Assembly: GCA_028820845.1 (NCBI GenBank)
Contig: JAPPII010000026.1
Coordinates: forward strand, 25,321 to 89,320
DNA length: 64,000 nucleotides
Reading direction: 5' to 3'
From: Candidatus Poribacteria bacterium
GTDB lineage: Bacteria; Poribacteria; WGA-4E; WGA-3G
Of this stretch, positions 8,028-64,000 are shown piece by piece. Both the position numbers and the translations under genes were made by a program. The notes beneath the pieces are model-generated. The model did no database searches. It was not told the origin of the DNA and worked only from the letters and a program-made list of their open reading frames with translations. Numbering within the stretch: position 1 is the first letter of the stretch; the number at the start of each line of letters is the position of its first letter.

Positions 8028-8490
8028 TTTTCCTCCTCTTTTAGAGTTTTTCTTCCTTACAAACGTAATGCCTTTGGTTGTCGTCTTAAAAAAGAAACAC
8101 CCCCACCGAAATCTCCATTTTGTGATGTCCAGTGATGGGCGTTGTATTGTGTAACTTCAAAAATCTATTATCTGCTACTCATAAGCCCACCCCTGTCTGG
8201 TACATAGAAATAGCGCACAGCACAGCACCAATACCAACTGATGTGCAAAGGCGGTTTTTATGTATCAACGTGGTAAGCGGCAGATAAAGCATTTGATGAT
8301 CCTGTTTTGGAATTTTATGTATGTTAAGTATTATGGCACATTTTGCCCTTGAATGTCAAAGTTTTTTAAATTCCTGATAGAATTCTATAAGAACCTTTAA
8401 CCTTCAGTTTTCTGAAAAATTCACATTTTTTTCACGAAATCGGAATGATTTACAACTTTGGTGGAAAGATTTAAATCGGTAGGGTGATTA
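8028..8490. other. Intergenic region between DUF5916 and GH genes
   Basis: 463 bp with no credible gene. It is AT-rich in its right half. It holds the ribosome-binding site of the DUF5916 gene at its left end and one plausible minus-strand promoter (listed separately). No terminator hairpin or repeat family member was recognised. Confidence 0.6.
8330..8359 (-). promoter_or_regulatory. Possible sigma-70-type promoter for the DUF5916 gene
   Basis: Read on the minus strand, TTGACA (8359-8354), an 18-bp spacer and CATAAT (8335-8330) resemble a housekeeping promoter. The start codon is about 300 bp downstream, so the leader would be long. The match could be chance in AT-rich DNA. Confidence 0.35.
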
Positions 8491-54648: not shown

Positions 54649-56085
54649 ATGGCACGACAACCCAATATTCTATTTCTCCTGACTGATCAGCAACGTTTCG
54701 ATTCACTCGGTTGCAACGGTGCCCCAATTTGCAGAACACCTGCCGTTGACGAAATCGCTGCGACAGGTATGCGATTTACGAACGCCTATACCCCGATCGC
54801 CCTCTGTTCACCCGCACGGGGGTCGCTCCTCACTGGACTTTATCCACACAATCACGGGCAGCTATCGAATATGGGGAACTTCAACGGCGTGTTTGCAAAT
54901 CAAATTCTCGACAAACCGACATATCCAAAACTTTTGAGTGAGGTAGGCTATCGGGTGAGTTGTGTCGGTAAGTGGCATCTTGCCAAAGAAGGTGATACAG
55001 AATTCTGGGGTTACGACAAGTGGCACCCCTATCGTGAGTGGCATCAATGGCTTCGGGATGATGGCATCGACTTCCGAATCGACAGGGATGCTGTCCAACC
55101 TTTTGAGTGGGGCGGTGAAGCACCTTTCTATGGAAGACACCCACTTCCCGTCGAACGCACGATGGAGGCGTGGACGGCGGATAAAACGATTGAATTGCTC
55201 AACGGTTATGCAGGTTCTGAAAAACCCTTTATGATTGCTGCGAATTTCTTCGGACCGCATTTCCCCTATGCCGTGCCAGCACCTTACGACACACTGTACG
55301 ATCCTGATAGCGTTGAGCGGTGGGGCAATTTCGATGAACAATTCATAAACAAACCGCTTATCCAACAGAAAGAGATGCTCCGTTGGAACGCCAGTCACCT
55401 GACATGGCCCGATTGGCAGAAGGTTATCGCCGCCTATTGGGGATACTGTACCTTCATTGACGACCAAGTCCGACGGATTCTCGACTGCCTTGAAGCGAAC
55501 GGTTTAGCGGAGGATACTGTTATCGTTTTTTCAACCGACCACGGCGATATGCTCGGCAGCCATCGCCTTTTCAACAAGGGTTTCCACATGTATGAGGAGA
55601 CGCACCATATTCCGCTCGTTATTCGCTGGCACGGCACAACATCACCCGGGACGACCTGTGATGAATTTGTGAACCTCGTAGACCTCATGCCGACCTTCTT
55701 GGAACTCGGCGGCGCAGCAGTCCCTGATACTGTTGACGGTAGATCCATTGTGCCGCTGTTACGCGGGGAAACTGTAGATGACTGGCCCGACGATGTATTC
55801 GCTGAATTTCACGGCTATGAGCCGACCCTCGCCTCTGTCAGAATGGTGCGAACGGATTCGTGGAAATACGTCTACAATCCGTACAGCGAGGACGAGCTCT
55901 ACGACATGAAGAGCGATCCACACGAACTCCGCAACTTAGCGAATCACCTCGGTTACAAGCATGTCCTCCGCCGTATGAAAGCCCGTATGGTCGATCGCCT
56001 GCGTCAGACGAGAGACAACATCGTCCAAGAAGGCGGATGGCAGAGCAATTCGTTTGATCTACTTGTCTCAGATCGGGAGCGGTAG
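54649..56085 (+). CDS. Type I (formylglycine) sulfatase
   Basis: A 478-residue sulfatase without a clear signal peptide. The modification site is C53-S-P-A-R followed by GSLLTGLYPHNHG; the Cys would be converted to formylglycine by a sulfatase-modifying enzyme, which is not in this window. Metal ligands appear in FLLTDQQRFD and VFSTDHGDMLGSH, and GKWHL supplies the conserved Lys-His. It hydrolyses sulfate esters, probably from sulfated polysaccharides. The lack of a signal suggests a cytoplasmic location, for example on imported oligosaccharides. Confidence 0.92.
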   Translation: MARQPNILFLLTDQQRFDSLGCNGAPICRTPAVDEIAATGMRFTNAYTPIALCSPARGSLLTGLYPHNHGQLSNMGNFNGVFANQILDKPTYPKLLSEVGYRVSCVGKWHLAKEGDTEFWGYDKWHPYREWHQWLRDDGIDFRIDRDAVQPFEWGGEAPFYGRHPLPVERTMEAWTADKTIELLNGYAGSEKPFMIAANFFGPHFPYAVPAPYDTLYDPDSVERWGNFDEQFINKPLIQQKEMLRWNASHLTWPDWQKVIAAYWGYCTFIDDQVRRILDCLEANGLAEDTVIVFSTDHGDMLGSHRLFNKGFHMYEETHHIPLVIRWHGTTSPGTTCDEFVNLVDLMPTFLELGGAAVPDTVDGRSIVPLLRGETVDDWPDDVFAEFHGYEPTLASVRMVRTDSWKYVYNPYSEDELYDMKSDPHELRNLANHLGYKHVLRRMKARMVDRLRQTRDNIVQEGGWQSNSFDLLVSDRER

Positions 56086-56479
56086 CCTGAATGTGAGTAC
56101 TGTCCGGTACATGCCATCCGCAAGAAAAACTGAAGTGTGTGAGAAAACGCAGCCGCCAGCGCGGTGCTATGTCTATAGAAATGCCATCCTATCCTAAAGC
56201 CTCATTTCCAGCCGTTTGATATGCCAATTACACCTAAAATTGTCCAAAATTTTTAAATATATCTCGCCACAACCTTTTTGTTCGTCGTAATTTTAGATTT
56301 TGGTTGAAGCATTGCGTGACAAAATATTTTTTTTCACATGATGTAACGTTTTGGGAAAAAAATGTGTCTTTATAATCATAGGGCCTGTATTGCATTGCAC
56401 AAAGTCCGAGACTCACTATCTAATTGGACGTTTCAGTGGATGTCAACACGACCAAATCTGTTCATGAGGAGGAAACTCT
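56086..56479. other. Intergenic region upstream of the ECF sigma gene
   Basis: 394 bp, AT-rich in the middle. It carries the ECF-type promoter at 56342-56369 and a GAGGAGG ribosome site at its right end. A 60-codon minus-strand frame covering the promoter is a shadow. Nothing else recognised. Confidence 0.6.
56342..56369 (+). promoter_or_regulatory. ECF-type promoter, TGTAAC-N16-GTGTCT
   Basis: TGTAAC (56342-56347), 16-bp spacer, GTGTCT (56364-56369). The flanks match the site at 62731-62758: a T-run then AC-TGA before the -35, an A-run at the end of the spacer and TTTA after the -10. TGTAAC with a 16-17-bp spacer is the usual ECF promoter layout (compare sigma-X of Bacillus). It lies 111 bp before the sigma gene, which suggests autoregulation. 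Confidence 0.6.
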
Positions 56480-57862
56480 GTGGAGAGAGCAGACGATGTT
56501 CAATTGATCCATGCCGTTTTATCAGGCGACGACTCAGCATTCAAAGTTTTAGTTGAAAAATACGAAAAAAAGGTTCACGCCATCGCGTACGGAAAAATCG
56601 GTGATTTCCAGCATGCAGAAGACATTACACAAGAGACCTTCCTCAGCGCATATCAAAAGTTGTCAACGTTGAGAAACCCGAGTCGGTTTTCCGGGTGGTT
56701 GTATGTTATTGCGAAGCGGCTTTGTCAGAATTGGCTGAACAAACAAAAACCCGCGCTGCAATTGCAATCGTTGGAGGACACACCTATGGAAGAAGTGGTG
56801 AAGTCTGATTATGCGCGTTACGTATCGGAACAGCGCGAAACAGAAGCAACTGAAAATCGTCGTGAGATCGTCAACAAACTTTTGGAAAAATTGCCGGAGG
56901 GTGAACGGGCAGTGGTGACGCTCCATTATCTCGGCGAAATGACAACAACGGAGATTAGCAAATTCTTGGGGGTGTCGGTGGAGGCAATAAGGACTCGACT
57001 CCATCGCGCCCGAAAACGGTTACAAGAAGAAGAAGCACTCTTGATCCAAGAAGTTCTCGGCAGTTTGCAGATACCCGCGCGTATCAAACAGAAGATTATG
57101 CAAGAGATTGCTAACATGCAACCGACACCTGCTCCGAAAATGAAACCGCTCTTGCCGTGGGTGGCTTTCGGAACTGCTTTGGGTGTTACAGCTCTATTGA
57201 TTTTGGGTGTCGGCAACCTAAACCTTGAACATTTTCAGCAACTTTACAAGACTTACTTTGCGAGTGATGAGGAAACCACAAAAGGTGAAAAGGATTTCAC
57301 TCCTGATTTTACCCTAACACTCGGCACCCATAGGAGTGGGGCTGATTTGTTAGCGGCACTGGCGGCAGAAAAATGCCAGGTCAGTCTGTGGTCCATGCAA
57401 GCTCTTGAAAATCCGGATTTCCCGGTAGCCGCAGCGGAAATAACGGTTGATATTGTTGTGGTTTCTATGCTGGAGCTGGGGTTTGCTGAGGGTGAGTTTG
57501 CTACGCTTGATACGATTTATGCGCGTGCGAAACAGATGGGACTTGAAACGTGCCCGGTTGAGATTGCCCCGCAGCTGCGTCTGCGACTTCTTGACCAACC
57601 CGATTGGATGACCGGGGATCGGCTCTCGGAATTTTTCGTCGCGAGTGAACCGTTTGTGCTGACGCGTGAGGGGTTACCGAAGATTTTCAGCATCGTGCGG
57701 GATGATAGATACCCGCACCCTGAAACCGGTAGAGGGCTATGGTTGATTGCAAATGGCACCCTTGGAGCCGGGGATCCAGAACTCCCTGGCAGGCTGTTTA
57801 GTGCCTCCGATCCTACAGGGTTTGACCACAAAGGTCGTTTTGCATTCGTTATTCCGAAATAG
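56480..57862 (+). CDS. ECF sigma factor with transmembrane helix and extracytoplasmic C-terminal domain
   Basis: A 460-residue protein. Residues 5-90 are sigma region 2 (DDSAFKVLVEKYEKKV, AEDITQETFLSAYQKL, FSGWLYVIAKR). Residues 134-182 are region 4 (LPEGERAVVTLHYLGEMT, GVSVEAIRTRLHRARKRL). A single hydrophobic helix lies at about 224-247, and residues 248-460 form a domain I do not recognise, predicted outside the membrane. Typical ECF sigma factors are ~190 residues and use a separate anti-sigma. Here the sensor or anchor seems fused. Start GTG 56480 follows GAGGAGG. The 1555-residue protein gene begins 28 bp after its stop. Confidence 0.88.
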   Translation: MERADDVQLIHAVLSGDDSAFKVLVEKYEKKVHAIAYGKIGDFQHAEDITQETFLSAYQKLSTLRNPSRFSGWLYVIAKRLCQNWLNKQKPALQLQSLEDTPMEEVVKSDYARYVSEQRETEATENRREIVNKLLEKLPEGERAVVTLHYLGEMTTTEISKFLGVSVEAIRTRLHRARKRLQEEEALLIQEVLGSLQIPARIKQKIMQEIANMQPTPAPKMKPLLPWVAFGTALGVTALLILGVGNLNLEHFQQLYKTYFASDEETTKGEKDFTPDFTLTLGTHRSGADLLAALAAEKCQVSLWSMQALENPDFPVAAAEITVDIVVVSMLELGFAEGEFATLDTIYARAKQMGLETCPVEIAPQLRLRLLDQPDWMTGDRLSEFFVASEPFVLTREGLPKIFSIVRDDRYPHPETGRGLWLIANGTLGAGDPELPGRLFSASDPTGFDHKGRFAFVIPK

Positions 57863-57890
57863 ATAGCACACAACTTATGGAGACACCTTT

Positions 57891-60800
57891 ATGAAAACAA
57901 CAAAAACGTTATCCTTCTTCTTTAAAAACTTCTCAAATCCAAGACGACTAATTTCGTTCACTTTCGTTATCATCTTAGTAGTCTTAGGCGTGCAAGGAAT
58001 TAGTTACGGACAGCGTTTGAACGTTGGCGGACCGCGCGCTGTACGGATGATTTACTTTCTACCCAACGACCGTCCATACCAATCTGACGTAGTTCAGAAG
58101 ATGAAAGATCAGATGGTTGCCCTTCAAACCTTTTTTGCCAAACAGATGCAAGCACATGGATACGGAAAAAGGACTTTTCGTTTTGAAACTGATGCCAAGG
58201 GTAAGCCGAAGGTTCATCGCGTCGATGGTCAGTATTCTGATAGTTACTATGTTGCTAAGAATGGAGGATATTGGGAGGAGCTGGAGCAGAAATTTGATAT
58301 GCGGGGACCCAATATTTACTTTGTTGTTTGGGACAATAGTACAGGTCTCATCTCCGGAGGTATAGCGGGAATAGGAGGATCTTCAGGGAAAAATAGTGGC
58401 TTGCTGGATGTCCCTACCGGATTCTCCTTTGGAACAGCAGCGCATGAACTGGGGCACGCCTTTGGATTGGGTCACGATTTTCGAGACGGTAGGTATATCC
58501 TTTCGTATGGTCCAGAACAGAACAGATTGTCTGCATGCGCTGCCGAGTTTTTGGCAGCGCGTCCATATTTCAATCCCGATATCCCGTTTGAAGAGGGACC
58601 GGCACCGACTATTGAACTGATTTCATCACGTACATATCCAGCGGGCTCGAAGAGCGTCACAATTCGGCTAAAAGTCAGTGACACAGACGGAGTTCACCAG
58701 GTTCTCCTATTTGGTGTTGGTAATCTAATCGCGTGTCGCGGGTTAGCAGGCAAAAAGGAAGCCATCATTGAATTTGAATATGATGGTGTTCATACAGCTA
58801 AGGGTTATATCAGTCTTTCTGATGCTGTTTCACATGCCATGGGGGTGCAAGCTGTTGATATAAACGGGGATGCAGATTATATTGAGTTTCAACTTGCAGA
58901 AATCTCACAACACCATATCCATACGTTTGAAGGACATACAGGTACAGTCGACTCCATGATGTTCTCACCTGATGGGAGAATGCTTGCATCAGGTGGATGG
59001 GAGTTGGTCAAGTTGTGGGATGTTGAGACGCAGCAAAATATTGCTACTTTTGAAGGAAGCTCGGTAGCATTTTCTCCCAATGGTAGAACGTTAGCAATTG
59101 GTGATTTTGGCTGGATTAAGTTGTGGGATGTTAGGACAAAACATAATTTCGCTACTCTTGGACCTATAGTAGATGGCGTGTATTCTTTGGCGTTTTCACC
59201 CAATGGGAAAATGCTCGCTTCGGGATCACATGATGGAATGATCGCGTTGTGGGATGTCGCAAGGCATCGTGATATTTTCACCTTTCAAGCGTATACGCGT
59301 TCGGACAAATGGACAAATAACAGTGTTATTTCTTTAGCGTTCTCGCCTGATGGGAAAATGCTCGCTTCGGGGTCTTATGATCCGATGATTAAGCTATGGG
59401 ATGTTGCTACGGGAACGAATATTGGATCCATTCGGGAAGAAGGACTTGCCCCTTATATCTACTCTTTAGCGTTCTCGCCCGATGGGAAAATGCTCGCTTC
59501 GGGGCGCGGAAATGGACCTGGTAACGTCAAACTGTGGGACGTTGCGACAAAACGCAATATTGCGTTTTTTGATCATATATTAGAGGTCTATTCCGTAGCG
59601 TTTTCACCTGAAGGTTCAATTCTCGCTTCGGGCTCACGTGATGGCATGGTCACGTTGCGGGACGTTGCCACGGGTACCCACATTGCTGATTTACCGCATA
59701 CCTCTGGTGCATGGTCTGTTGCTTTTTCACCCGATGGATCTACCCTGGCCTCCGGAACACGGGATGGCGTGGTCAGCTTTTGGAATCTACCGCCAAGGGC
59801 GTTAGTCGCTGAATCTCAGCGTCCGCCTCTGTATTGGATAGATGCCGAGCGTGGCACACTCCATCGCCTCATCGGTGACACAATAGAAAACTTTCTGCCA
59901 AACGTCCGGAATGCTATGAGTCTCGCCGTCGACATCGTAAGCGGAGAACTCTATTGGACAGAGAAAACCACACCCCGCACCGGGGCTCTCCTCCGCGCAA
60001 ACCTCAATGGAAATCCAAACCCCCAACTCGTCAAGAATCTAACAAGCGTCCCTCAAGGTCTTGCACTTGATACCACAAACCGTAAGATTTACGTGACAAA
60101 CGCTTACGGTAAAGTTCAACGTCTCAATTTCGACGGTTCAAACTTCCAACCCAATCTTATTACTGGTTTGCAGACTCCAAATCACCTGGCATTAGATGTG
60201 ACGCGTGGCAAGATTTATTGGACGGAACAGACGGACGATAGAACAGGTAAAATACGACGGGCAAACCTTGATGGCACAAATATTGAATTAGTCAAGGACT
60301 TAACGAGCGTTCCCCATGGTATAGCTGTTGACACTGTAAATGGCAAGATTTACTTAGCGAGCCCCTACGGTCAGGTGCAGCGGCTAAATCTTAATGGTTC
60401 AAACTTTCAACCCAACTTCATCAGAGGCTTGGAATCTCCGAAAAACCTTGCTGTAGATGTGGCGGACGGAAAACTCTATTGGACGGAAAAAGGAGGCATT
60501 AGTCGCGCAGATCTGAACAGCAAGCATAGAGAGAATATCGTCGCAGGCTTAGATGCCCCCGCCAATATTGCCTTAGGTATTATGAATCAGGTGGCAGTTG
60601 ATACTGAGATGGAAGTTGATTATAACTTCTTTAGTATCGCGTTCAGTCCTGATGGGAACCGCTTTGCTACCGGCAATCACGATGGGACGACACGGCTGTG
60701 GAATGCCAATACAGGTAAAGAGTTACGGGTTTTCGGAGGGCATACCGGCTCTGTTGACAGTGTTGCGTTCAGTCCTGATGGTGTTCGCCTTGCTACCGGC

Positions 60801-62558
60801 AGTGCGGATGGCACGGCACGGCTCTGGGAGGTCAACACGGGTAAACAGATACGGGTTTTCAGAGGACATACCGAGGCTGTCACAAGTATTGCGTTCAGTC
60901 CCGATGGCACACGCCTTGCTACCGGCAGTCGGGATGGCACGGCGCGGCTCTGGAATACCAACACGGGTAAACAGATACGCGTATGGGATGGTGTTGGCGG
61001 TTGGAGTTTCCAGACTATTTACAGCGTTGCTTTTAGTCCAAATGGAAATCAATTTGCTATAGGGACTGTTGGTGTCGGTTCCCAGATATGGAATACCAAC
61101 ACGGGTGCGTTGATACGGGAGTTGGATACGGGCAGTGTGCGTAGCCTTGCTTTTCATCCTGAAGGGAAGCAACTTGCGACAGCCGGTTGGGGTGAGGCGC
61201 AGCTCTGGAATACCAACACAGGTGGACTCATACGCACTTTCGGAAGCAATGAGGGTACGGGCATGGCTCTCGCGTTCAGTCCTGATGGGAGCCGCATCGC
61301 TACAGGTAGTCACATTGGGACCGTGCGGCTCTATAATGTCAACACGGGTAAACGTATATGGACTTTTAAAAAAGGATATCCGGGAATCAGTAGCGTGGTC
61401 TTCAGTCCTAATGGGAAACACCTCGTTACAATCGATGCGGATGGCACTGCGCTGGCCTTGAATGCTAACACGGGTAAACCCGTATTAACCCTCATGGATG
61501 AGCCAGGTGAATCGCAAATTGTATCAATCCCTGACGCGAACAAGGTTGTATCCATCCCCGACGCGAACTTGGCAAAGGCTATCCGAAAAGCCTTGGAACT
61601 GGGAAACAACGCCCGCATCACAAATCAGCACATGTTGAAACTCACCGAGTTAGAAGCCAGGAACAGGAAAATAAAGAACCTGACGGGTCTTGAGCACGCC
61701 AAAAACCTCACCCGATTATATCTCGATCGAAATCAAATTCGCAACCTCAATCCGCTTTCAGGATTGACACGCCTCAAGACGCTAACGCTTGACGAAAACC
61801 AAATCAGCAACGTTGGTCCGCTCACGAAACTAACACAATTAGACTGGTTGTTGATTGGCGGCAATCCGATTAAGAATGCCGGTGTCCGCTTGCTTGCCGA
61901 ATTGAAGCATCTCAGAGGGTTATCCCTCTATAACAGTCAGATAAGTAACATCACACCGGTGGGAAAGTTGACGAAACTCGAAAGTCTCTGGCTTGACTAT
62001 AATCAGATCCGCGATGTCTCGCCGCTTTCGGGGTTAACGAACCTTCGGACGTTACATCTCCGGGATAATCAGATCCGCGATGTATCTCCGATAGGGAAGT
62101 TAACGCAACTGACGAGTTTACGGCTGACCGATAACCCAATAGCAGATGTCGGTCCCCTTGCGAGTCTTTGGAAACTCGAAGATGTGGATATTGAGATTCC
62201 GCCAGCCGCCCCTGGGCATGTCGGCGTTGCACCGCCTGAAGTCACATCGTTGCTCGAAAACTACCCGAACCCGTTCAATCCAGAAACGTGGATTCCCTAT
62301 GAGTTAGCGACGGATATGGATGTGCGCATCACGATTTACAACGCCCAGGGTGTTGTGATCCGGACGTTAGAGTTAGGGCAGCAGTCGGCAGGATATTACA
62401 CCACTCGGAGCCGTGCGGCACACTGGGATGGTCGGAACGCACTCGGAGAACCCGTCGCAAGTGGCGTGTATTTCTATACATTGTCCACGGAGTCCACACG
62501 TGACTCCGTTACCGCCGGCGAATTCACGGCAACGCGTAAGATGCTGGTACGGAAATAA
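57891..62558 (+). CDS. Giant secreted protein: metzincin protease, WD40, YWTD, WD40, LRR and FlgD/T9SS-like tail
   Basis: A 1555-residue exported protein. Signal peptide 1-42. Metzincin-type zinc site HELGHAFGLGHD (185-196), matching HExxHxxGxxH. WD40 block one (about 343-634) has seven F-S-P-x-G repeats; a YWTD-type propeller (about 645-899) has six blades (LYWTEKT, KIYWTEQT, KLYWTEKG); WD40 block two (about 913-1201) has seven. Internalin-type LRRs occupy about 1217-1437 (NLTRLYLDRNQIRNLNPLSG). The end (1453-1555) carries ENYPNPFNPETW and ASGVYFYTL, as in FlgD-like/Por sorting domains. It likely acts at the surface in binding plus proteolysis. Probably co-transcribed with the sigma gene. 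Confidence 0.9.
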   Translation: MKTTKTLSFFFKNFSNPRRLISFTFVIILVVLGVQGISYGQRLNVGGPRAVRMIYFLPNDRPYQSDVVQKMKDQMVALQTFFAKQMQAHGYGKRTFRFETDAKGKPKVHRVDGQYSDSYYVAKNGGYWEELEQKFDMRGPNIYFVVWDNSTGLISGGIAGIGGSSGKNSGLLDVPTGFSFGTAAHELGHAFGLGHDFRDGRYILSYGPEQNRLSACAAEFLAARPYFNPDIPFEEGPAPTIELISSRTYPAGSKSVTIRLKVSDTDGVHQVLLFGVGNLIACRGLAGKKEAIIEFEYDGVHTAKGYISLSDAVSHAMGVQAVDINGDADYIEFQLAEISQHHIHTFEGHTGTVDSMMFSPDGRMLASGGWELVKLWDVETQQNIATFEGSSVAFSPNGRTLAIGDFGWIKLWDVRTKHNFATLGPIVDGVYSLAFSPNGKMLASGSHDGMIALWDVARHRDIFTFQAYTRSDKWTNNSVISLAFSPDGKMLASGSYDPMIKLWDVATGTNIGSIREEGLAPYIYSLAFSPDGKMLASGRGNGPGNVKLWDVATKRNIAFFDHILEVYSVAFSPEGSILASGSRDGMVTLRDVATGTHIADLPHTSGAWSVAFSPDGSTLASGTRDGVVSFWNLPPRALVAESQRPPLYWIDAERGTLHRLIGDTIENFLPNVRNAMSLAVDIVSGELYWTEKTTPRTGALLRANLNGNPNPQLVKNLTSVPQGLALDTTNRKIYVTNAYGKVQRLNFDGSNFQPNLITGLQTPNHLALDVTRGKIYWTEQTDDRTGKIRRANLDGTNIELVKDLTSVPHGIAVDTVNGKIYLASPYGQVQRLNLNGSNFQPNFIRGLESPKNLAVDVADGKLYWTEKGGISRADLNSKHRENIVAGLDAPANIALGIMNQVAVDTEMEVDYNFFSIAFSPDGNRFATGNHDGTTRLWNANTGKELRVFGGHTGSVDSVAFSPDGVRLATGSADGTARLWEVNTGKQIRVFRGHTEAVTSIAFSPDGTRLATGSRDGTARLWNTNTGKQIRVWDGVGGWSFQTIYSVAFSPNGNQFAIGTVGVGSQIWNTNTGALIRELDTGSVRSLAFHPEGKQLATAGWGEAQLWNTNTGGLIRTFGSNEGTGMALAFSPDGSRIATGSHIGTVRLYNVNTGKRIWTFKKGYPGISSVVFSPNGKHLVTIDADGTALALNANTGKPVLTLMDEPGESQIVSIPDANKVVSIPDANLAKAIRKALELGNNARITNQHMLKLTELEARNRKIKNLTGLEHAKNLTRLYLDRNQIRNLNPLSGLTRLKTLTLDENQISNVGPLTKLTQLDWLLIGGNPIKNAGVRLLAELKHLRGLSLYNSQISNITPVGKLTKLESLWLDYNQIRDVSPLSGLTNLRTLHLRDNQIRDVSPIGKLTQLTSLRLTDNPIADVGPLASLWKLEDVDIEIPPAAPGHVGVAPPEVTSLLENYPNPFNPETWIPYELATDMDVRITIYNAQGVVIRTLELGQQSAGYYTTRSRAAHWDGRNALGEPVASGVYFYTLSTESTRDSVTAGEFTATRKMLVRK

Positions 62559-62870
62559 TTTTTTCCATTTTTATCGCTCTGAGCCGGGCAACGGGTTTCT
62601 GATAACTTGTCCGCAATGCGATTTCTAAAAAAGCAATCGCCTGCTGCCGAGAAACAGAAGGGAAGCCTTCAAGAAAATAGTCAAGATTCTCCCTTGCTTG
62701 GACTTGAAAGTTTCATTTTTTTTGACCTGATGTAACATTTCGCGAAAAAATCGTGTCTTTAATATTGTCTATTGCCATAATATAGTAGGACTCACGCAGC
62801 ATGCTCATCTGTCTCACAGAATCTCGGACAGTCAACATTGCGCAAGTCCTGATAAAATAGGAGAAATCAG
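62559..62870. other. Intergenic region with second ECF-type promoter
   Basis: 312 bp between the giant protein gene and the LRR lipoprotein gene. It contains the ECF-type promoter at 62731-62758 and an AGGAGA ribosome site. No terminator hairpin was recognised after the giant gene, so read-through is possible. Confidence 0.6.
62731..62758 (+). promoter_or_regulatory. ECF-type promoter, TGTAAC-N16-GTGTCT
   Basis: TGTAAC (62731-62736), 16-bp spacer, GTGTCT (62753-62758), 112 bp before the LRR lipoprotein start. Spacing, flanking T-run, spacer A-run and distance to the gene match the site upstream of the ECF sigma gene, so both are probably read by the same sigma factor. Confidence 0.6.
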
Positions 62871-63794
62871 ATGAAAATATGTAAAGGTCCCTTGCTTGCA
62901 ATTTTGCTGTTATGTGTGTATGTAATAAGCTGCGAAAAGGCTCAGCAAATAGTCGGGCCAGCCGTGGAGCCGCCAGCAGAAGCCGTGTTCATGCCGGATG
63001 CGAAAGTAGCGGCGGCGGTGCGTGAAACACTGGGTCTGGCAGCAGACGCACCGATTACCGCCGAGGAACTACAAAACCTAAGAACACTTAAACTCACTGA
63101 CGGTATAGCGGACTTCACTGGCTTAGAATATGCCGTAAATCTGACAGAATTAGTGGTGCCGGGTATTCATCCGCTATCAGATGTTTCCCCACTCGCAAAT
63201 CTTACGAATCTGACAAACCTGAGTTTTGGCGATAACCGGGTATCAGATATTTCCGCACTCGCAAATCTCACGAATTTGAAACGATTCGGTATATCAGGAA
63301 CCCAAGTATCGGATATTTCCGTACTCGCAAACTTTACAAATCTCACAGAACTGCGTTTGGGAAGTGGCCTAGGAGATGGTGTCCCGCTATCAGGTATTTC
63401 CGTACTCGCAAATCTTACGAATCTGACAAAACTGAAATTAGCCAATCTTCCGGTATCAGATGTTTCTGTTCTTGCAAATCTTATGAATCTCACAGAATTG
63501 GAAATAGCGGCTAGCGATGTATCAGATATTTCTGGGCTCGCAAATCTCACAAATCTTACAGAACTGAGACTGTGGGGTACAGAAGTATCAGATATTTCTG
63601 TCCTTGCAAATCTCACAAATCTCACAGAACTGAGACTGGAGTCTAGCCAGATATCGGACATCGCGCCCTTGGTGGCGAATACAGGATTGGGCAGCGGCGA
63701 CATCGTCGATTTGCGGGATAATCCTTTGGATGAAGCTGCCACTAACACTCATATCCCGGCACTCCAAGCCAGAGGTGTTACAGTAGAATGGTAA
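62871..63794 (+). CDS. Leucine-rich-repeat lipoprotein
   Basis: A 307-residue lipoprotein. The signal peptide ends in the lipobox VIS-C21. After a short linker come internalin-type repeats of about 22 residues with consensus SDISVLANLTNLTELRL, roughly eight to nine copies from about residue 70 to 285. A cap (VLANLT to ARGVTVEW) closes the array. The repeats are also conserved as ~66-bp DNA units. LRR lipoproteins act as surface binding proteins. AGGAGA precedes the ATG, and an ECF-type promoter lies 112 bp upstream, linking it to the sigma gene at 56480. Confidence 0.9.
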   Translation: MKICKGPLLAILLLCVYVISCEKAQQIVGPAVEPPAEAVFMPDAKVAAAVRETLGLAADAPITAEELQNLRTLKLTDGIADFTGLEYAVNLTELVVPGIHPLSDVSPLANLTNLTNLSFGDNRVSDISALANLTNLKRFGISGTQVSDISVLANFTNLTELRLGSGLGDGVPLSGISVLANLTNLTKLKLANLPVSDVSVLANLMNLTELEIAASDVSDISGLANLTNLTELRLWGTEVSDISVLANLTNLTELRLESSQISDIAPLVANTGLGSGDIVDLRDNPLDEAATNTHIPALQARGVTVEW

Positions 63795-63836: not shown

Positions 63837-64000
63837 ATGAAAACGCTATCTGTCATTCTACTCCTCATAATTTGTACACTTATACAACTCACTTTTGTAA
63901 TGATTGCTTTTAGTGTTACGTTCAGTCCTGATGGAAACCGCCTCGCCACAGGCAGTGCGGATGGGACCGTGCGGCTCTGGAATGCTAATACAGGTAAAGA
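63837..64000 (+). CDS. WD40-repeat protein, 3' end outside the window
   Basis: Only the first 54 codons are present. A hydrophobic N-terminus (ILLLIICTLIQLTFVMIAF) looks like a signal peptide or anchor. It is followed by VTFSPDGNRLATGSADGT and VRLWNANTGK, a WD40 repeat nearly identical in protein and DNA to block two of the giant protein at 57891-62558. AAGGAAC precedes the ATG. The gene starts 43 bp after the LRR lipoprotein stop and is likely in the same transcript. Confidence 0.82.
   Translation, partial: MKTLSVILLLIICTLIQLTFVMIAFSVTFSPDGNRLATGSADGTVRLWNANTGK

Follow-up and report, generated by a model that had tools for sequence, protein, structure and literature searches.

Poribacteria are symbionts of sponges, and the locus described here comes from one of their genomes. 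Some ECF sigma factors carry a C-terminal extension with a transmembrane (TM) helix, and in IutY (ECF243) this extension is FecR-like. According to excerpts of PMC8999054, proteolytic release of such membrane-fused sigma factors has been shown for IutY and is expected for ECF48/ECF52/ECF53; the same excerpts describe WD40-like C-terminal extensions in ECF57 of Planctomycetes, for which activation by protein interaction has been suggested. A separate, co-transcribed anti-sigma gene is, in the available part of PMC8103513, no longer regarded as defining for ECF sigma factors. In Clostridium thermocellum, the sigma-I/RsgI systems consist of paralogues with distinct promoter specificity and of outside-facing sensors that control surface systems (PMC10575876, in excerpt). 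A mutual-information code, in which ECF residues predict the cognate promoter bases, was reported by Todor et al. 2020 (as cited in an excerpt of PMC10880074). Our literature search, in the titles and excerpts that it returned, yielded no paper on ECF sigma factors of Poribacteria and none on the control of eukaryote-like repeat proteins in these bacteria; nor was any paper found on ECF covariation or on ECF sigma factors with propellers.

Here we analyze a stretch of 64,000 nucleotides ("the window") on contig C26 of a host assembly of 5.69 Mb that is 95.5% complete. Two similar sites in the window are very probably promoters read by an ECF sigma factor that is encoded in the window and predicted to be membrane anchored, and that would activate both its own operon and the neighboring one for surface proteins. 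Three elements of this reading are directly backed, i.e., the sites themselves, their conservation before orthologues, and the covariation of residues and bases in the sigma family.

Results

Two ECF-Type Sites and the Genes behind Them

The pattern TGTAAC-N16-GTGTCT occurs on the + strand at 56342-56369 (site 1) and 62731-62758 (site 2), with no other match in the 64-kb window (two matches compared with 0.04 expected; none of 100 shuffles reached two). Site 1 lies 110 nt before the GTG start of an ECF sigma gene at 56480, and site 2 lies 112 nt before the ATG start of an LRR lipoprotein gene at 62871; a first-pass annotation made from the letters had given gaps of 111 and 112, of which the second stands and the first is corrected. 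The annotation had also described a similarity of about 45 bp including a T-run and an A-run, and a position-by-position comparison agrees: the sites share a T-run 5' of the -35 word (56327..56334 and 62716..62723), an A-run in the spacer, and TTTA after the -10. The -35 word TGTAAC occupies 56342..56347 and 62731..62736, and the -10 word GTGTCTTTA occupies 56364..56372 and 62753..62761. Over 31 positions the two sites differ at five, every one in the spacer. The T-run is kept in sigma-gene and target sites, with the consensus TTTTTT..cAC..GA over 28 sites of each kind.

All genes of the locus are on the + strand. A leader (56370..56479) extends from the -10 core to the start codon of the sigma gene (56480..57862, 460 aa) and is similar in sequence among orthologues, the likeness between species covering ~100 nt; RNAalifold on 23 leaders, in a very gapped alignment, gave no fold, and the shuffles likewise gave none. 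A sulfatase gene (54649-56085, same strand) adjoins the locus on its 5' side. Beginning 28 nt 3' of the sigma stop is the gene for a 1555-aa predicted secreted protein (57891..62558). It has WD40/propeller repeats by Pfam and LRR repeats by internalin-type NCBIfam matches, all under whole-protein cut-offs. Reading of the sequence predicts a metalloprotease-like motif in this protein (HELGHxxGLGH, 58443-58475) and, at the locus, a signal peptide and a lipobox, the latter being the lipobox-like N-terminus (VISC) of the 307-aa LRR protein (62871..63794). After a further 42 nt, a gene for a WD40/LRR protein with a sorting tail starts at 63837 and continues beyond the window (63837..64000) into an assembly gap. 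An N-run lies within this gene (L097, ~8320-8425), and its reading frame across the gap is uncertain. Its product is the further WD40 protein named in the annotation.

The sorting-tail domain of the 1555-aa protein (62262-62498) scores 30.1 bits against the T9SS-type model TIGR04183 (cut-off 23); the host genome has 66 matches to this model of type IX sorting tails, of which this domain is one. For the T9SS machinery, the host genome has a SprA_N match below cut-off only; SprA_N was found in none of 14 control genomes. A clustering of sorting-tail genes near sigma genes was considered and rejected: within a distance of 8 kb, such a gene was seen by eye for five of the 18 family members, which is near the density expectation.

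At genome scale, the 12-base core, with a spacer of 15-17, shows no depletion relative to chance: it occurs twice in 5.69 Mb and its reversed-pattern control three times, so that it is not rare, and we therefore dropped its genome-wide rarity as evidence. The 33-nt extended word, allowing up to three mismatches, has three sites in the genome, compared with none for the control. The third extended site precedes a sigma paralogue on contig C114, 70% identical; it reads TGTAAG, and its paralogue has a different recognition residue. With two extended TGTAAC sites and this one TGTAAG site, the regulon in the host genome looks small. Across the genus, a 31-nt form with up to three mismatches gave 160 matches, compared with 4 for the reversed pattern; the 160, a table sum, are spread over 35 of 38 genomes and take in related words, TGCACC among them.

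A Sigma Factor with a Predicted Membrane Helix and Many Paralogues

The sigma domain gave Pfam matches above cut-off to PF04542, PF08281, PF04545, and PF07638, and the protein scores 104.1 bits against TIGR02937 (cut-off 42.9). Regions 2 (residues 24-90) and 4 (129-183) are present, and region 3 gave no Pfam match at E 0.001, which is the arrangement of ECF (group IV) sigma factors and confirms the identity assigned in the first-pass annotation. An AAC-type -35 and a GTC-type -10 are found 5' of its own gene. Where a canonical ECF locus has a co-transcribed anti-sigma gene, the sigma gene is followed by that of the 1555-aa propeller/LRR protein.

C-terminal to region 4, as in membrane-fused ECF sigma factors, residues 224-242 (LLPWVAFGTALGVTALLIL; 57149..57205) form a TM helix predicted by hydropathy only (mean 2.06 over 19 residues). 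It is followed by a C-terminal domain, residues 271-460 (57290..57859), predicted to be extracytoplasmic. This domain had no sequence match in Pfam, NCBIfam, or PDB, and none in PDB by profile at E 0.1. In the full-length model its pLDDT, in blocks of 10, lies between 47 and 90; modeled alone, it had a mean pLDDT of 57.3 and no PDB match at E ≤0.001. Structure matches (VIA) of the whole sigma model cover residues 14-193 only. Among the matches listed, 58 relatives of the domain, of 106-328 aa, were found, and no wider family was seen. For the whole protein there were 1725 database matches, including the window's own, and the best 120 of these cover 99-100% of the window sigma with at least 70% identity; the three of the best 120 that carry an organism name are all Poribacterial.

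The sigma family has 18 members in the host genome (at least 44% identity) and 74 in the complete genome G005. A helix near residue 220, with more than 100 aa C-terminal to it, was predicted in 14 of the 18 host members and in 54 of the 74 G005 paralogues; the remaining 4 and 20 have no helix near residue 220 by this hydropathy measure. A helix within residues 1-180 was predicted in none of 134. When 10 paralogues were scanned for extra domains, we found LRR in two, BNR/sortilin-type propellers in three, and WD40 (L216), AhpC/TSA, and helix-turn-helix domains in one each, with none recognized in the other two. Both the predicted membrane tether and the paralogue family go beyond what the first-pass annotation saw. 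In G005, 12 paralogues are arrayed on one strand within 48 kb (G005:C1:1525026-1573142, L216-L218), with frames mostly of ~1000 aa and an ECF-type word often 20-75 nt before the start codon.

Promoter Words before Orthologues and Paralogues

In most other-species orthologues, T-run-GATGTAACGTTTTG..AAAAAA.GTGTCTTTA or a close variant is kept ~70-270 nt before the start; in two (L043 and L045) no such word was seen within the stretch covered. Paralogues have other ECF-type words, with -35 elements such as TGCAAC, TGCACC, and TGCACG, -10 elements such as GCGTCA, TCGTCT, and GTATCT, and spacers of 15-17. A generic ECF rule applied to 300 bp upstream, which like the residue classes used below was set after the data had been looked at, fits 70 of 133 paralogues (35/74 in G005 and 9/18 in the host). 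For comparison, 20 Markov sets gave a mean of 0.9 of 133 (maximum 4) and the reverse strand gave 2 of 133; among random genes 8 of 258 fit, five of these eight being themselves sigma-family paralogues. Over all 140 sigma domains, the rule gave no site for 59; in the host genome it gave none for nine of the 18. The 37 sites located among the 74 G005 paralogues comprise 22 distinct -35/-10 words.

In the leaders of L007/L098, L038, L041, and L044, the -10 word (GTGTCTTTA, GTATCTTTA, or a variant) is repeated ~12-28 nt downstream. At L118, L156, L251, and G005:C1:1173717, genes for one and the same type of sigma are preceded by two TGTACC-N16-GTGTC copies, separated by 82-83 nt.

Covariation between Sigma Residues and Promoter Bases

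Mutual information was calculated between the located words and ~200 columns of the sigma alignment, with 79 sigmas in a first run and 81 of 140 in a later one. In both runs the top column was residue 172 for -35 base 3, residue 175 for base 5, and residue 171 for base 6, the three bases of TGTAAC that covary with the sigma. For -10 base 2, residues 90 and then 84 ranked highest in both runs, with residue 87 third among 79 sigmas; for -10 base 3, residue 84 came first with 81 sigmas, and residue 63 first and 84 third with 79. In the 81-sigma set, base 3 of the -35 is T in 28 sigmas with a residue other than Ser at 172 and in two with Ser172, and C in 51 with Ser172 and in none with another residue (2/81 exceptions). 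Base 6 is C in 65 sigmas with K/R171 and in one without, and another base in two with K/R171 and in 13 without (3/81 exceptions). Base 5 agrees with R/Q175 in 73 of 81 (eight exceptions), and -10 base 3 agrees with K/R/H/M84 in 80 of 81 (one exception).

On a tree built without columns 171, 172, 175, and 84, base and residue changed on the same branch 4 times for residue 172 (0.15 expected), 11 times for 175 (1.7), 5 times for 171 (0.44), and 5 times for 84 (0.19). Tree support for -10 base 2 was weaker (3 compared with 0.3 expected for residue 84, and 2 compared with 0.26 for residue 90). The top-ranked columns for -10 base 6 and for spacer length lie outside any plausible contact region, which calls for caution about phylogenetic noise.

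Nine further sigma genes were fetched afterwards, their words but not their residues having been seen beforehand. Residue 84 and the -10 agree in 9/9, residue 171 and base 6 in 6/7, and residue 172 and base 3 in 6/7. An exception is G060, where TGTAAG precedes a sigma gene that encodes R171 and has a broken frame. In G008, K84 is present in each of the three sigma gene pieces read (contigs C42 and C7), and GTATC, as the code predicts, at each of the three target sites; no word was found before these pieces.

The covariation had been found before the crystal structure of SigW region 4 with -35 DNA was consulted. In the excerpt of that paper (PMC6713349), base contacts are given for K170 (the G paired at -31) and T171 (-34), with H174 next to -32/-33. 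In the alignment, the window sigma has R171, T172, and H175 at these positions; within the -35 word, -31 is base 6, -34 is base 3, and -32 is base 5. The covarying residues 171/172/175 are thus in agreement with the crystallographic -35 contacts given there. As far as sequence comparison can tell, the covariation and the conservation of the word support transcriptional autoregulation of the sigma factor.

Genes behind the Target Sites

The fetched genus loci contain 60 TGTAA-type sites, of which 28 stand before a sigma gene (26 different genes), another 28 before a gene of some other kind, and 4 have no following ORF of 120 aa. The first ORF is on the strand of the site in 54 of 56 cases. Of the 26 same-strand targets, 14 (spread over 9 of 15 genomes) show an LRR/WD40/sorting-tail pattern, compared with 2 of 289 random genes; the nominal P of this comparison is too small because the related genomes are not independent. 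By Pfam, dockerin (8), WD40 (7), and LRR_4 (7) domains were found among the 26 targets, each occurring in at most 2 of 120 random genes (a bound set by the lowest count, 2, among the 25 most frequent families there, which include none of the three). The 12 targets without the pattern include a transposase; eight were scanned, giving one cohesin/vWA protein, the transposase, one weak carboxypeptidase-regulatory match, and nothing in five. Behind the sigma genes, 15 of 28 sites have an LRR/WD40/sorting-tail gene among the next three ORFs. The proposal of the first-pass annotation that the sigma factor drives itself and adhesion-like surface genes is therefore largely supported at the sequence level, by covariation, crystal contacts, orthologue conservation, and these LRR/WD40/sorting-tail targets.

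Discussion

The mechanism that we envisage begins at the membrane, which the single predicted helix (224-242) would cross, so that the N-terminal ECF part faces the interior of the cell and the C-terminal domain the exterior. A signal sensed outside by the C-terminal domain would lead to cleavage by an RseP-type protease, i.e., we infer that the sigma factor is released by regulated intramembrane proteolysis, with a proteolytic release like that of IutY. M50 (RseP-type) and S41 proteases are encoded in the host genome, and their presence is common rather than specific (M50 in 14/14 and S41 in 10/14 control genomes). The freed sigma would bind TGTAAC via R171/T172/H175 and the GTGTC -10 via region 2.4, transcribing the sigma and the propeller protein from site 1 and the lipoprotein and the WD40 protein from site 2; the genes 3' of the sigma and lipoprotein genes would be co-transcribed with them, given the gaps of 28 and 42 nt. 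Transcription of its own gene by the sigma would constitute positive feedback. The switch would be one member of a paralogue family, and a variant of the word was located for about half of this family.

Could the two sites instead be housekeeping sigma-70 promoters, with a -10 (TATAAT/TTTAAT) after GTGTCT or nearby and TGTAAC incidental or an activator site? Site 1 does read GTGTCTTTATAAT, many sites continue TTTAATA, and a consensus scan gave two weak matches near site 2 (62722-62751 and 62759-62786, each 9/12). The same scan lists no match at site 1, and its five matches in the 8-kb region compare with a shuffle mean of 9.3. Over the 28 + 28 sites TGTAAC is kept and TATAAT is not, and the bases of TGTAAC change together with the recognition helix of the sigma encoded 3' of them, so that we consider a sigma-70 origin very improbable. 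It seems scarcely credible, too, that the similarity stems from the copying of a promoter fragment, or from a mobile repeat, and plays no part in regulation today. Duplication would share words as well, and one target is a transposase gene, but the flanks are unlike beyond ~45 bp, orthologues in many species retain the word, and its specific bases change with the sigma residues.

An ECF promoter before the lipoprotein gene might also be read by another of the 18 host family sigmas, or by several with cross-talk. The paralogues' words are related, the ECF rule fits only 9 of the 18, and in G018 the targets differ from the clearest sigma at -10 base 3 (the word of the H84 sigma has GTATC, and four non-sigma sites have GTGTC); a further misfit is seen in G017 and G025, with TGTAAT target sites and no matching sigma word seen. 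Against this, none of the nine other located host words is TGTAAC; the window sigma, with R171, has TGTAAC, as does the lipoprotein site, and the closest host paralogue (C114) has W171 and TGTAAG. G001 and G009, which have both kinds of sigma, each have a single TGTAAG target, which matches the word of the W171 sigma at all of 31 nt and precedes a 735-aa gene; cohesin, dockerin, and vWA domains were found in the G009 product. A sigma word from the same genome was available for 26 of the 32 targets, and these are nearer to their own genome's sigma word than with genomes permuted (mean distance 2.73 compared with 3.49, P 0.002). Reading by another family member thus appears unlikely, and we favor the window sigma as the reader of both sites.

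If the code holds, regulons would be readable from DNA, with residues 84, 171, 172, and 175 predicting the word of each sigma. The family also provides naturally diverged pairs of sigma and promoter, in which the avoidance of cross-talk among paralogous regulators could be studied. For a relative with 74 members, about half with a recognizable word, control circuits could become predictable from DNA alone. It is conceivable, if on balance doubtful, that Poribacteria run dozens of one-protein sensor-TM-sigma switches per cell, each with its own word before its own gene and chosen surface genes, as a near-orthogonal barcode deciding which LRR/WD40/cohesin-type proteins face the sponge.

Like the canonical ECF sigma factors B. 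subtilis SigW and E. coli sigma-E, the window sigma has regions 2 and 4, an AAC-type -35, likely autoregulation, and the same base-contacting positions; unlike them, it joins a predicted TM helix and an outer domain to the sigma part in a single polypeptide, and its gene is followed by that of a propeller protein, not an anti-sigma. The C-terminal extension with a TM helix is shared with IutY (ECF243) and ECF48/ECF52/ECF53 (e.g., SCO4117). The window sigma differs from these in having no Pfam match at E 0.001 to the zinc-finger anti-sigma part and carbohydrate-binding C-terminus of ECF52, or to the FecR-like anti-sigma extension of IutY. A WD40 extension such as that of ECF57 was found in one of the 10 paralogues scanned (L216) and is absent from the window sigma. 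The sigma-I/RsgI systems, as portrayed in the excerpt cited above, resemble this family in their several sigma paralogues with distinct promoter specificity, their outside-facing sensors (here predicted), and their control of surface systems, although they use a different sigma type and two separate proteins, whereas the window sigma and its predicted sensor form one chain. Compared with the code of Todor et al. 2020, as the citing paper describes it, the divergence here lies within one genus and comes with target genes. Autoregulated ECF sigma factors, membrane-fused ECF sigma factors, and a residue-base code are already known in kind; what is new is the combination of a large expansion, one-chain predicted sensors, diverging words, and surface-protein targets.
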